A stretch of 64,000 bases of DNA from Chitinophagaceae bacterium (GTDB lineage: Bacteria; Bacteroidota; Bacteroidia; Chitinophagales; Chitinophagaceae): positions 1 to 64,000 of the forward strand of contig SEAD01000005.1 in NCBI GenBank assembly GCA_004173355.1, written 5' to 3'. Of this stretch, positions 2,667 through 49,440 are shown one piece after another; within the stretch, counting starts at the first letter, position 1, and every line of letters begins with the position of its first letter. The position numbers and the translations under genes were made by a program. The notes under the pieces were generated by a model, which saw only the letters and a program-made list of their open reading frames with translations, was not told the DNA's origin and searched no databases.

Positions 2667-2692
2667 GGGGCTGCAATATACCACAACCTCTT

Positions 2693-2700
2693 TACCTTTG
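2693..2700 (+). promoter_or_regulatory. -7 element TACCTTTG for ubiE
   Basis: An exact match to the Bacteroidota -7 consensus TAnnTTTG, ending only 5 nt before the ubiE ATG (2706). No good -33 TTG is visible, as the upstream DNA is the divergent engB start. The spacing suggests a leaderless or nearly leaderless mRNA. Confidence 0.55.
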
Positions 2701-2705
2701 CACAC

Positions 2706-3476
2706 ATGTCTACCTCCCTGCCCCACGACCATATCACACCCTTCGCGGAATCCGCAAAAACCAAAAAAGAACAGGTAGCGGAAATGTTCGACGGGATTGC
2801 CGGCCGGTATGATTTCATGAACCGGTTCCTCTCCCTCCGGATCGATGTACTCTGGCGGAAAAAGGCCATCAGTTTTTTCAGCAAAGATAATCCACGGTTA
2901 ATCCTCGATGTGGCTACGGGTACCGCCGACATGGCCATTCGCGCCAGCAAAATGCTGCATCCGGAGCGGATTGAAGGCATCGATATTTCCCCGAATATGC
3001 TGGCAATCGGCCAGAAAAAAATTGAGAAAGAAGGACTTGCAGAGAAAATCCACTTACAGGTGGGTGATTCCGAGACAATAAATTTTGCCGACGGAACGTT
3101 TGATGGCGTGATGGTGGCGTTCGGCGTCCGGAATTTCGAAAACCTCGAAAAAGGCCTGTCGGAAATCCTCAGGGTGTTAAAACCCGGCGGACAACTGGTG
3201 ATCCTCGAATTTTCAAAACCAAGCCGGCCCTTCAGGAGCATTTACAACCTCTATATGGGAGTGATTGCACCGGGTCTGGCAAAATTGTTCCGGCAGGATA
3301 AAAAGGCATATCAATACCTGAATGAATCGGCAGGTGCATTCCCCGACGGGCCACTGATGGTTGGTATTTTAAACAAATGTGGTTATTCCGATACCCGTTT
3401 CAAATCGCTAAGCTTAGGAATATGTTCAATTTACTCAGGAAGAAAAACCCGCTTACAAGGACAATCGCCTGCCTGA
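2706..3476 (+). CDS. ubiE: Demethylmenaquinone methyltransferase UbiE/MenG
   Basis: This 256-residue class I SAM-dependent methyltransferase carries out the C-methylation that converts demethylmenaquinone to menaquinone. UbiE blocks are present: AEMFDGIAGRYDFMNRFLSL (about residues 24-43), SAM motif I DVATGTADMA, VAFGVRNFEN and LKPGGQLVILEFSKP. The C-terminal GICSIYSGRK is the usual family ending. The last 55 nt overlap porT in another frame. Since these bacteria generally use menaquinone, the menaquinone role is more likely than ubiquinone (inference). Confidence 0.95.
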   Translation: MSTSLPHDHITPFAESAKTKKEQVAEMFDGIAGRYDFMNRFLSLRIDVLWRKKAISFFSKDNPRLILDVATGTADMAIRASKMLHPERIEGIDISPNMLAIGQKKIEKEGLAEKIHLQVGDSETINFADGTFDGVMVAFGVRNFENLEKGLSEILRVLKPGGQLVILEFSKPSRPFRSIYNLYMGVIAPGLAKLFRQDKKAYQYLNESAGAFPDGPLMVGILNKCGYSDTRFKSLSLGICSIYSGRKTRLQGQSPA

Positions 3477-9134: not shown

Positions 9135-9190
9135 ATTTGACCTGCATCCGGCACCCCGGCAAAAACGAACCTGAAATGTTTTGTATTCAC

Positions 9191-14848: not shown

Positions 14849-15304
14849 CTATCCTTCCTTTTTCTTTTCGTCCTTCCCGCGCCACCAGTCCGTGAAGAAG
14901 TTGGAGCGTTCCAGCTCTTCCATGTCACTCAATTCCCATTCGAGGGCCTTGGTGCTCAGTGTTACTTCTACAAATGACACAATGAGTGAAGCCAGGAGAC
15001 TCAGCAGGCTGATCGCAAACACCATTTCCGTCAGCAGCATCCATTGCTGGTAAACACCATACATCGTTACCACACAACACACAAAGGAAAACACACCCAG
15101 CGCCTGCATCAGCCGCACGAGATTGATCCTTGTCCGCAGGATCTTGATCTGCTTGAGCAGCAGGTGGTTTTTTTCACCACGGGTGTATTCATCATGCAGC
15201 TTACGGATGAGCGCCGCCAGTGCAAGGTACCGGTTTGTATAAGCCAGCAGCAGCAGGCTGATCGCAGGAAAAAGCAGTGCCGGTGTATTGAAGGTGATTT
15301 CCAT
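14849..15304 (-). CDS. DUF2721 membrane protein
   Basis: This 151-residue protein fits DUF2721: a first hydrophobic helix (PALLFPAISLLLLAYTNRYL), a basic cytoplasmic stretch with KQIKILRTRINLVR, two more membrane helices and a charged tail (DWWRGKDEKKKEG). No function is known. The start at 15304 lies 4 nt from a -7 promoter box; a longer frame from 15406 is rejected because it would run through a strong hairpin. It converges with the rhodanese gene, stops 2 nt apart. Confidence 0.8.
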   Translation of the reverse strand: MEITFNTPALLFPAISLLLLAYTNRYLALAALIRKLHDEYTRGEKNHLLLKQIKILRTRINLVRLMQALGVFSFVCCVVTMYGVYQQWMLLTEMVFAISLLSLLASLIVSFVEVTLSTKALEWELSDMEELERSNFFTDWWRGKDEKKKEG

Positions 15305-15308
15305 CTGC

Positions 15309-15316
15309 CAAATATA
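15309..15316 (-). promoter_or_regulatory. -7 element TATATTTG for the DUF2721 gene
   Basis: An exact TAnnTTTG match on the minus strand, 4 nt before the ATG (15304). The hairpin at 15316-15351 lies just upstream where a -33 region would be, and no clear TTG is seen. Confidence 0.5.
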
Positions 15317-15351
15317 AGGGGCCATTCCGGAAAGATCCGGAACAGCCCCTT
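15316..15351. terminator. Long two-part hairpin
   Basis: Outer arms AAGGGGC (15316-15322) and GCCCCTT (15345-15351) enclose perfect inner arms TTCCGGA (15325-15331) and TCCGGAA (15336-15342) with an AAGA loop. On the minus strand it could end transcription of the lipoprotein gene, but the T-tract is weak and doubles as the next promoter. Confidence 0.5.
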
Positions 15352-40476: not shown

Positions 40477-40484
40477 TAAATTCG
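40477..40484 (+). promoter_or_regulatory. -7 element TAAATTCG for the lytic transglycosylase
   Basis: TAAATTCG followed by TAGCG and the ATG at 40490, a 5-nt gap. The relA/spoT start has almost the same layout (TAAATTCGTAG then 3 nt then ATG). Confidence 0.5.
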
Positions 40485-40489
40485 TAGCG

Positions 40490-41536
40490 ATGTTCAAAAC
40501 AATCTGGGTGCTGTCGTTGACCCTTGTATTTAACCAGACAAGGATTAATGCCTCTCCCACCATTTTTCTCAATGCCGATACTTCAGACCTGCTGTTAAAA
40601 GTAGATTCCCTGAAGCCGTCAACCGCGGTAGCCATCCCCGCTGATCCGAAGGAAGGTTTCCGGGACCTGTTTGTAAATGGTTCCGCTGATGCCACCGAAA
40701 TCCTCGAACTCAATCCGATGGCAATTACCTTCGTAGAAGACTACATGGGAAAGTTCCAGAAATCCATGGACGAGCTCAAAAACTGGGGTCGCCCCTATTT
40801 TGACATGATGGATGGAATCCTTGAGGCAAACGAATTGCCAAAGGAACTGAAATACCTGGCCGTGATTGAGTCCAATCTCAAATCCGGTGCCCGCTCCTGG
40901 GCCGGCGCAGTTGGACCCTGGCAGTTCATGCCGGCCACCGCCCGCAATATGGGTCTCGTAGTCAACCGCAAGGTTGATGAGCGTCGTGACCTGGCGAAAA
41001 GCACAAAAGCTGCCTGCAAATACCTGAATTCGCTTTTTACTATTTATGGCGACTGGCTCCTTGTAATCGCTGCGTACAACAGCGGTCCCGGCACGGTGAA
41101 CTCCGCAATCCGCCGGAGCGGAACCCGGGATTTCTGGACGCTGCAGAATTACCTGCCCCTGGAATCCAGGAACCACGTAAAAAAATTCATTGCCACCCAT
41201 TACATGTTGGAAGGAAATGGCGGGATTACTACGCTCACCAGGGCCGAGGCAGCAGATTTTGTCGCCCGGACCGACAGTGCGATGGCCAATGCCACAAAAA
41301 CGGCGAGTATCAGCGGTCGTTACAATTCAGGTGTGATTGTTAAACACTTGGAGATGACTGCTATCGATTTCAACCGTATCAACCCGCAATTCGACAAACA
41401 GATCGGGATCAACGGGAAATATGAACTCCGTCTCCCTGCCGAAAAGATGACCATTTTCCAGACTAAAAAATTTGACATCCTTGCCGAATCGGTTTACCTG
41501 CTGTTAAACGGCGAAACTGCTTCCGCTTCCAAATAA
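40490..41536 (+). CDS. Lytic transglycosylase (SLT domain, MltD-like)
   Basis: The 348-residue protein starts with a signal-like hydrophobic stretch (MFKTIWVLSLTLVFNQT). The SLT domain (about 115-265) has the catalytic glutamate E127 in AVIESNL, then GAVGPWQFMPATARNMGL and IAAYNSGPGTVNSAI. It cleaves peptidoglycan glycan strands in the periplasm. The C-terminal ~70 residues look LysM-like (VIVKHLEMTAIDFNRINPQF). It is a single gene with a terminator. Confidence 0.92.
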   Translation: MFKTIWVLSLTLVFNQTRINASPTIFLNADTSDLLLKVDSLKPSTAVAIPADPKEGFRDLFVNGSADATEILELNPMAITFVEDYMGKFQKSMDELKNWGRPYFDMMDGILEANELPKELKYLAVIESNLKSGARSWAGAVGPWQFMPATARNMGLVVNRKVDERRDLAKSTKAACKYLNSLFTIYGDWLLVIAAYNSGPGTVNSAIRRSGTRDFWTLQNYLPLESRNHVKKFIATHYMLEGNGGITTLTRAEAADFVARTDSAMANATKTASISGRYNSGVIVKHLEMTAIDFNRINPQFDKQIGINGKYELRLPAEKMTIFQTKKFDILAESVYLLLNGETASASK

Positions 41537-46967: not shown

Positions 46968-49217
46968 TTATGCGGGAATATCCTCGTTATCAAAGCGTTC
47001 AACCGATTCAATACCCGATAATTCCTTCAACCGGGCCACCAGGGTTTCGAGTTCTTCGCGGTCGTGCACAAATACCTTGATATTCCCCTCAAAAAGACCC
47101 TCCTTGGCTTCAAGGCTGAATGCGCTGATATTGATGCGCAGTTCACCCGAAATCAGGTTGGTGATCTTGTGGATTACACCGACATCGTCCAGTCCCACGA
47201 TCTTGAGCCCGGTCAGGAAGGAAATCTCCTTATTCTTCGCCCATTTCGTTTTCACCACCCGGTGTCCGTAGTTAGACAACAATTTGGTTGCATTGGGGCA
47301 ACTCGTGCGGTGGATCGTGAGGCCTTTGCCGGTGGTTACAAACCCGAACACGTCATCCCCGGGAATCGGCTTGCAGCAGTTGGCGAGATTGTACACGATC
47401 TTGTCGCTGCTCTCGCCAAATATGATCAGCTCGGTATCGTTCTTTTTATTATGCCCATGCGCGGGATTGAATTCCTGCTTGAACTCCTGCACGGTTTTTA
47501 CTGGTCGCGGTGGTTCGATGTTTTCACCCACCACCTTAAAATCCTTGATTTCCTTCAGGTCAATATTCTTGATGGCAACCTGGTAAAACAGGTCGAGGTG
47601 CGAAGGCAGTTTGTAATGCTGCACGATCTCCTCGATATTATGCTGGTTGAGTGCGGCACCCATACCTTCCAGTTTACGCTGCACGGTATATTTCCCTTCA
47701 TCCGCGATCTTGCGTTTTTCTTCTTTCAGCGCGTCCTTGATCCGTCCCCGGGCTTTGGCAGTAACTACAAATCCCAGCCAGTCTTCCGAAGGTTTTTGCT
47801 TATTACTGGTGATGATTTCGATCTGGTCACCACTACGCAGCTTATGGCTGATCGGCACCAGTTTATGGTTCACCTTGGCACCAATCGTTTTCACACCAAT
47901 TGCACTGTGTATCGAGAATGCAAAGTCAAGCGCCGTGGAATCAACCGGCAGCATTTTGACATCCCCCTTGGGAGTGTACACATATATTTCTTCCGCAAGG
48001 AAGCTGGTCTTGAATTCCTGCAGGAAATCGATACTGTCGGCTTCGTTATTGCCAATTACTTCACGGATCTGCTGGAACCATTTATCAAAGCGGCTTTCAT
48101 CGCTTGTGCCTTCCTTGTATTTCCAGTGCGCAGCGAGACCTTTCTCTGCAATTTCGTTCATCCGCTTGGTACGGATCTGTACTTCCACCCACTTTCCCTG
48201 CGGTCCCATCACCGTTGTATGCAGCGCTTCATACCCGTTTGATTTCGGATTGCTGAGCCAGTCGCGCAGGCGTTCGGGAGATGGCGTGTACTCATCCGTG
48301 ATCATCGAATACACTTTCCAGCAGTCTTCTTTTTCCCGGTCAGCGGGTGAATCGAGGATTACCCGGATGGCGAAAAGGTCATACACTTCTTCAAAGTCCA
48401 CCCCTTTCTTTTTCATCTTGGTGGAAATGCCGTGGATACTTTTCGGGCGGCCGAAAACCTCGAACTTGAAATTCCACCGTTCCAGTTTTTCCTTGATCGG
48501 ACGTATGAATTCGTTGATGTATTTACTGCGTTCCCGTTTGGTTTCTGCCAGCTTTTGTGCAATATCCCGGTAGGTTTCCGGCTCCATGTATTTCATGGCC
48601 AGGTCTTCCATTTCGGTCTTGATATTATACAACCCCATCCGGTGTGCAAGTGGTGCATAGACGTATACCGTCTCCGATGCAATCTTCAGCTGCTTCTCCC
48701 GCTTCATGCTTTCCAGTGTGCGCATGTTGTGGAGGCGGTCGGCAAGCTTTATCAGTATAACCCTAGGGTCATCGGTCAGTGTCAGCAATATCTTTTTGAA
48801 ATTCTCTGCCTGCTGTGAGGCATTTGTGTCTATCACGTTGGAGATCTTGGTCAGTCCATCCACGATGCGTGCGATCTCCTGTCCGAATTCCCTTGCGATA
48901 TCTTCCAGTGAAATATCGGTGTCCTCCACTGTATCATGCAGCAGCGCACAGATCGTGGACCGCACACCCAGTCCGATTTCTTCCACGCAGATCTTTGCCA
49001 CTGCAAGCGGATGGAGGATATAGGGCTCACCACTTTTCCGGCGCATGGTCTTGTGCGCTTCGGCGGCCATCTCAAAGGCAACCCGCAGTAATTCCTTATC
49101 CCCTGGTTTGAGCTTTGTCTTGAGTGAGCGTAAAAGGGAACGGTATTCACGCAGGATCAGTTTTCGTTCCTGCTCTTCATTCAGATTGTATTTCGGTGTC
49201 TGGGCTACAGTTTCCAT
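46968..49217 (-). CDS. relA/spoT: Bifunctional (p)ppGpp synthetase/hydrolase RelA/SpoT
   Basis: The 749-residue protein has an HD hydrolase domain with HDTVED (H94-D95...E98-D99), a synthetase domain with YDLFAIRVIL and EVQIRTKRMNEIAEKGLAAHW, a TGS domain (YVYTPKGDVKMLPVDSTALDFA) and a C-terminal ACT domain. Because the HD residues are intact it should both make and degrade (p)ppGpp, the stringent-response signal. As I recall, other Bacteroidota often have a fur-like gene between this gene and purA; none is here. Confidence 0.96.
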   Translation of the reverse strand: METVAQTPKYNLNEEQERKLILREYRSLLRSLKTKLKPGDKELLRVAFEMAAEAHKTMRRKSGEPYILHPLAVAKICVEEIGLGVRSTICALLHDTVEDTDISLEDIAREFGQEIARIVDGLTKISNVIDTNASQQAENFKKILLTLTDDPRVILIKLADRLHNMRTLESMKREKQLKIASETVYVYAPLAHRMGLYNIKTEMEDLAMKYMEPETYRDIAQKLAETKRERSKYINEFIRPIKEKLERWNFKFEVFGRPKSIHGISTKMKKKGVDFEEVYDLFAIRVILDSPADREKEDCWKVYSMITDEYTPSPERLRDWLSNPKSNGYEALHTTVMGPQGKWVEVQIRTKRMNEIAEKGLAAHWKYKEGTSDESRFDKWFQQIREVIGNNEADSIDFLQEFKTSFLAEEIYVYTPKGDVKMLPVDSTALDFAFSIHSAIGVKTIGAKVNHKLVPISHKLRSGDQIEIITSNKQKPSEDWLGFVVTAKARGRIKDALKEEKRKIADEGKYTVQRKLEGMGAALNQHNIEEIVQHYKLPSHLDLFYQVAIKNIDLKEIKDFKVVGENIEPPRPVKTVQEFKQEFNPAHGHNKKNDTELIIFGESSDKIVYNLANCCKPIPGDDVFGFVTTGKGLTIHRTSCPNATKLLSNYGHRVVKTKWAKNKEISFLTGLKIVGLDDVGVIHKITNLISGELRINISAFSLEAKEGLFEGNIKVFVHDREELETLVARLKELSGIESVERFDNEDIPA

Positions 49218-49223
49218 TGTCTA

Positions 49224-49231
49224 CGAATTTA
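49224..49231 (-). promoter_or_regulatory. -7 element TAAATTCG for relA/spoT
   Basis: TAAATTCG lies 6 nt before the relA/spoT ATG (49217). This is the same octamer and nearly the same spacing as for the lytic transglycosylase, suggesting a very short or absent leader. Confidence 0.5.
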
Positions 49232-49440
49232 CACAAAAGAAATCTCGGAAAAAAGGAACAACATGATCCAACGGTTAAACTATCCGCCGGCGGTGTGGTC
49301 TGAGTTCCGGCCGGTCAGGTCTTTCACGGGACGCGCCGATGGTACCCGCGAGCCGGCTGCCGGGAAACGACCCGGATTTATTAACGAAAATTTCAAGCCG
49401 GCAGGTCAGCTCCGGCACTTAACTTGAAAAAAATCCCGTT

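Follow-up and report, generated by a model that had tools for sequence, protein, structure and literature searches.

Near-start boxes in the window

The window, that is, the whole stretch of 64,000 nt that was analysed, contains four genes in which a candidate -7 promoter box lies directly upstream of the start codon. It covers the first 64,000 of the 69,567 bases of its contig, in a genome of 5.36 Mb and 372 contigs. The preliminary description had placed these boxes 5 nt (lytic transglycosylase, LT), 6 nt (relA/spoT), 5 nt (ubiE) and 4 nt (DUF2721 gene) before the ATG, and all four boxes and gaps were confirmed on the sequence. The features are listed below.

40477..40484, + strand: -7 box TAAATTCG of LT, 5 nt before the ATG at 40490
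40490..41536, + strand: LT coding sequence (Pfam SLT, E 1.9e-25)
49224..49231, - strand: -7 box TAAATTCG of relA/spoT, 6 nt before the ATG at 49217
49235..49242 (approximate), - strand: T-rich stretch preceding the relA/spoT box (among relatives, a T-tract is kept 4-7 nt from the box on its upstream side; 62 loci with a gap of 4-7)
46968..49217, - strand: relA/spoT coding sequence with HD, RelA_SpoT, TGS and ACT domains (Pfam)
2693..2700, + strand: -7 box TACCTTTG of ubiE, 5 nt before the ATG at 2706
2706..3476, + strand: ubiE methyltransferase coding sequence (Pfam, E 3.2e-61)
2667..2705, no strand: spacer between ubiE and a divergent GTPase gene (2049-2666, - strand), 39 bp between the ATGs
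15309..15316, - strand: -7 box TATATTTG of the DUF2721 gene, 4 nt before the ATG at 15304
14849..15304, - strand: DUF2721 coding sequence (Pfam, E 1e-34), with its N-terminus conserved from the Met at 15304
15316..15351, - strand: 16-bp perfect hairpin, terminator-like, meeting the DUF2721 box (-31.6 kcal/mol, z -5.5)

The boxes of ubiE (TACCTTTG) and DUF2721 (TATATTTG) match the consensus TAHHTTTG, which allows no G at H, and the TAAATTCG box of relA/spoT and LT is one base off. The gene divergent from ubiE, which we take to be EngB-like, has TATATTG 7 nt before its own ATG; this is not a strict box. Upstream of DUF2721, the T run of the hairpin consists of the letters of the box, and a terminator and a promoter appear to overlap there (15309-15351, - strand).

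In all four genes the first T of the box lies 12-14 nt before the ATG, which fits the TA-led leaderless class of Zheng et al. 2011, where a TA-like promoter signal is described about 12 nt before the start codon (PMC3160421). Transcription in F. johnsoniae starts 4-5 nt past the -7 element, and its promoters carry AT tracts around -18 and -28 (PMC6847099). The preliminary description had assumed a start about 7 nt past the box, at or inside the start codon. This figure has to give way to the published 4-5 nt; the start would then coincide with the A of the ATG or precede it by 1-2 nt rather than lie inside the codon, and the leaders predicted here are therefore 0-2 nt long. A gap of 4-5 nt would put +1 on the A or one base before it, and a gap of 6 nt would leave a leader of 1-2 nt.

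Position of boxes relative to start codons

A count of TAnnTTYG near start codons against shuffled controls had been proposed in the preliminary description, and the excess at 4-8 nt was borne out in the window and in gene samples from four genomes of the family (the genome of the window itself, G115, G017 and G033). Gene starts were codon-score calls made for this analysis rather than annotated starts, and the motif was not used in calling them. Of the 55 genes called in the window, 4 have TAnnTTYG 4-8 nt upstream, compared with a mean of 0.18 in mononucleotide shuffles, and none of the 2000 shuffles reached 4. With 100 dinucleotide shuffles per genome, near boxes were found in 14/467 genes of the own genome (shuffle mean 2.05, maximum 5), 27/291 genes of G115 (1.33, maximum 5), 11/300 genes of G017 (1.38, maximum 5) and 6/264 genes of G033 (1.11, maximum 4).

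Because boxes farther upstream, those of ordinary leadered promoters, likewise exceed the shuffles, the position of the box is the sharper test. In the four family samples, TAHHTTYG preceded ATG starts at gaps of 0 to 8 nt in 0, 0, 2, 4, 24, 6, 9, 7 and 3 cases. The 24 starts at a gap of exactly 4 nt compare with 4.4 per position at 9-30 nt (Poisson 7e-11), and the same profile drawn for 62,182 non-start ATGs was flat, with no peak and 15 cases at gap 4. Leaderless genes prefer an AUG start, and ATG followed 53 of the 54 near boxes (TAHHTTYG at 3-8 nt; 1,322 genes) while GTG followed one; the margin is small, since ATG makes up 91-94% of all called starts in three samples. Among genes with a box within 100 nt, the nearest one lay at 3-7 nt in 24/73 (G115), 10/100 (G017), 12/90 (own genome) and 5/20 (G033). 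For the genome as a whole, the leaderless or near-leaderless organization predicted from the 4-nt register is well supported. The family samples showed no peak of purines where leadered promoters would be expected to start, which counts against it.

The string TAAATTCGTAG is common to LT and relA/spoT, as had been described, and followed by ATG within 6 nt it occurs twice in the 5.36-Mb genome, both times in the window in front of these two genes. Shared regulation is not supported. TTCG accounts for 12/54 near boxes and 47/224 far boxes in the family samples, and the TTCG:TTTG proportions are equal near and far (12:42 and 47:177, Fisher p 0.85), so that TTCG boxes were rejected as a special class. 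With two sites in the genome and an LT box kept at genus level, a regulon of LT and relA/spoT is not claimed.

Independently of gene calls, TAHHTTTG followed by ATG was also counted in 37 genomes of the class, with the reversed pattern as a control. Counts at gaps of 4-6 nt exceeded those at 9-11 nt in 37/37 genomes, compared with 17/37 for the control. The totals per position were 2186 (gap 2-3), 2894 (gap 4), 2439 (gap 5-6) and 1898 (gap 9-11), and the control was lowest at gap 4. The own genome has 70 per position at gap 4, 36.5 at 5-6, 27.5 at 2-3 and 25.3 at 9-11. The gap-4 peak was absent in another genome of the same family, G126 (82, 84, 84, 72.3), and in family f5 gap 4 exceeded gaps 2-3 in only 9/14 genomes. 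The strongest near-start excess was seen in f22, a family of another class of the phylum (8 genomes: G027, G059, G086, G101, G105, G113, G136 and G144), with 202 at gap 4 against 46 per position at 9-11 nt, gaps 4-6 above 9-11 in 8/8 genomes, and up to an 8-fold difference (41 vs 5 in G113). Several families among the other 111 genomes of the phylum that were searched had no excess, as judged by inspection of the tables, from which only f22 was summed.

Two single cases were observed during these counts. G101 of f22 has a box 4 nt before relA and 6 nt before ubiE. In G115, a divergent gene pair (L082, about 9140-9170) has boxes 5 nt from both ATGs with a AAGATAACGTTATCTT-like sequence shared between them, a predicted arrangement of near-start promoters back to back.

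Conservation of the boxes among relatives

The two deeply conserved cases are relA/spoT and ubiE. For relA/spoT, among the best 80 of 517 relatives, of which one (L175) was left out as its upstream sequence was missing from the row, the box lies 4-8 nt before the ATG in 64/79 loci, 43 of them at exactly 6 nt, and at a longer gap of 9-36 nt in 10/79. The remaining 5/79 have no box by an ATG-only rule, although two of these do have one before a different start codon (L121, TTG, gap 5; L191, CTG, gap 8). L185 has TAATTTAG in place of the box, and a box was not found at the Niabella loci L183 and L187. The offset was set by hand in ten loci, whose alignments started only at residue 5 or 8. Sphingobacteriales 46-32 (91%) and Terrimonas (89%) were the best named relatives. 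Titles of Chitinophagaceae or of its genera were frequent among the rest, and the family is accordingly taken to be Chitinophagaceae. Because related loci are not independent, no p-value is given on the conservation counts. A second set of loci from 6 family genomes had the relA box at 4-8 nt in 5. The core of the box is TAAATTCG in 59 of the 74 loci with a box from the best 80. Of these 74 boxes (L113-L192), 68 retain the C of TTCG, though TTTG is commoner in the family samples.

In the upstream consensus of relA/spoT, AT tracts occur at box -7..-4 and -19..-17. In 62 aligned loci, T is found at box -5 and -4 in 54 and 58, and A at -19 and -18 in 37 and 36. In position they match the tracts that F. 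johnsoniae promoters have at -18 and -28 (PMC6847099). Entropy over codons 2-10 was 0.56, 0.41 and 1.35 by codon position in 65 loci, the variation being mostly at the third position, and in the window a TAG in frame precedes the ATG by two codons; the relA/spoT start codon is therefore secure.

For ubiE, the box lies 4-7 nt before the ATG in 26/30 family loci (the best 30 matches from 60 genomes) and in 4/5 more, or 30/35 in all. The divergent pairing of ubiE with the GTPase gene was considered as a cause of the short leader and rejected: where both genes were within reach (18 of 59 ubiE loci), the gaps between them ranged from 37 to 1230 nt, and compactness is therefore no general explanation. 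Most loci outside the family lack the arrangement, which counts against the leaderless reading. The relA box was found at 4 nt in 1 of 24 loci and at 17-23 nt in 3, and the ubiE box at 5-6 nt in 3 of 24 and at 9-26 nt in 6.

The other two genes are poorly conserved cases. Before LT, no TAnnTTYG was found at 3-8 nt in the other 29 loci of the family (best 30 matches from 60 genomes), leaving the own locus as the one case among the 30, and the same-genus genome G203 has TAAATTCG at the same gap of 5 nt. The DUF2721 box was found at 4 nt in 5/23 orthologue rows; two of the 23 rows (L272 and L275) are the same stretch. LT and DUF2721 act as internal controls, as near boxes were not found everywhere by the procedure.

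These counts bear on the possibility that the boxes arise by chance or from gene calling, a short motif being found before starts chosen to suit it. The motif is indeed short, and the 29 LT loci without it are what such an account would lead one to see. However, the gene caller was blind to the motif, the non-start ATG control was flat, the relA ATG is fixed by the in-frame stop and the codon-position variation, and the box is conserved at relA and ubiE. We regard an artefact as the least credible of the accounts weighed here, with hardly any weight left to it.

The position fixed directly before the ATG would also suit a translation-initiation site or a regulator site in RNA or DNA, all the more in Bacteroidota, which are without Shine-Dalgarno sequences (PMC6847099). 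However, the motif lies 9-36 nt away in 10/79 relA loci and 9-26 nt away in 6/24 ubiE loci outside the family, and it matches the mapped -7 element together with its flanking AT tracts. A promoter would be expected to keep the same box at 9-36 nt, a translation signal would not, and a site of this other kind is very improbable.

Another alternative is that the near boxes are minor or internal promoters, and that the main transcripts begin farther upstream with ordinary leaders. LT, which lies 70 nt behind a same-strand gene and has another TATCTTTG 115 nt upstream, would agree with this, as would DUF2721 with its same-strand upstream gene. The evidence at the conserved genes is against it: relA and ubiE each diverge from the gene upstream, with a spacing of only 39 bp at ubiE; the 300 nt before relA, ubiE and DUF2721 in the window contain no second TAnnTTYG; and the conserved box is the near one. 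We therefore consider minor promoters unlikely. Together with the published spacing from box to start and the AT tracts at relA/spoT, the divergent neighbours and the lack of another box within 300 nt make a leaderless or near-leaderless mRNA the likeliest outcome for relA/spoT and ubiE.

Leaders, translation and relation to known systems

Taken as a whole, it is probable from these sequence data that the boxes are -7 elements of the ordinary Bacteroidota housekeeping sigma-ABfr type placed at start codons. With transcription starting at the A of the start codon or 1-2 bases upstream, the mRNAs of relA/spoT and ubiE would be leaderless or nearly so, as would those of about one-tenth to one-third of the family genes with a recognisable box. 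Such mRNAs would be read via recognition of their 5'-terminal AUG rather than through leader signals. Translation of leaderless mRNA by 5'-AUG recognition is an established route. A description of it is given in PMC10783764. Conservation across genera thus gives good support to the leaderless reading of the preliminary description at relA/spoT and ubiE, and the 4-nt register does so at the scale of the genome; DUF2721 (5/23 rows) and LT (one of 30 loci and G203) are weaker cases. As the commonest gap is 6 nt at relA and 5-7 nt at ubiE, leaders of 1-3 nt are as likely as none. Use of the boxes, the exact start and the mode of translation are predictions here, made from the observed box, gap, register and conservation.

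The boxes resemble the sigma-ABfr promoter (TTTG / TAnnTTTG) in the -7 element and the AT-rich flanks. They differ from it in that a start codon lies where the leader would begin, and in that relA/spoT and LT carry TTCG; this departure from the TTTG consensus counts against the explanation.

Leaderless mRNAs have already been reported in Bacteroidota, at 3.7-13% (PMC9723704, PMC7366714, PMC6847099). The count was 5.5% in F. psychrophilum (PMC9723704); in B. thetaiotaomicron, 5'UTRs shorter than 10 nt amount to about 3.7% (PMC7366714), and in F. johnsoniae 87% of leaders are longer than 10 nt (PMC6847099). These mapped mRNAs belong to the same phylum, with the same -7 box and the same short-leader class as those described here. 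In contrast, the mapped sets are from single species, none of them Chitinophagaceae, and relA/spoT, ubiE and a conserved register are not named in the available parts of those reports. Leaderless signals in Bacteroidetes were suggested from base biases by Nakagawa et al. (PMC5397173), and many Bacteroidetes genes were left as atypical by Zheng et al. (PMC3160421). A leaderless relA/spoT or ubiE in Bacteroidota was not found in the literature searched, which was mainly the main texts of open-access papers.

In Deinococcus-Thermus, a -10 motif adjacent to ORFs has been described (PMC12340547), with an earlier prediction in PMC3160421. The likeness lies in a core promoter element near the start codon, its preferred spacing, its conservation in homologues and a leaderless mRNA, which is predicted here. 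There, the element is TANNNT as the classical -10, about 6-7 bp before the ORF in almost one-third of D. radiodurans ORFs, and it was tested by mutation. Here, in contrast, the box is TAHHTTYG, the gap peaks at 4 nt, a few percent of genes are involved, and the evidence is from sequence. Spacing and homologue conservation of the Deinococcus type were found for relA and ubiE and not for LT or DUF2721. The kind of arrangement is thus known; what this analysis adds, and what was not found reported in the literature searched, is the one-nucleotide register, the Chitinophagaceae-wide conservation at relA/spoT and ubiE, and the Bacteroidota version of the box.

It is conceivable, though we put it forward tentatively and think it rather doubtful, that selection across many genera keeps relA/spoT, for (p)ppGpp, and ubiE, for a quinone methyltransferase, leaderless or with leaders of 1-3 nt in Chitinophagaceae. 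Their translation by the 5'-AUG route, favoured by 70S ribosomes and IF2, might then stay on when leadered initiation is throttled. Bacteroidota would in that case merge promoter and translation start in a way of their own, in parallel to Deinococcus.

The near-start box is a usable signal for start-codon callers. Bacteroidota are without Shine-Dalgarno sequences, and yet the mapped species are mostly leadered; a box kept across the family and locked in register at a stringent-response gene offers a clean, testable case for how and why the phylum initiates and keeps leaderless mRNAs.
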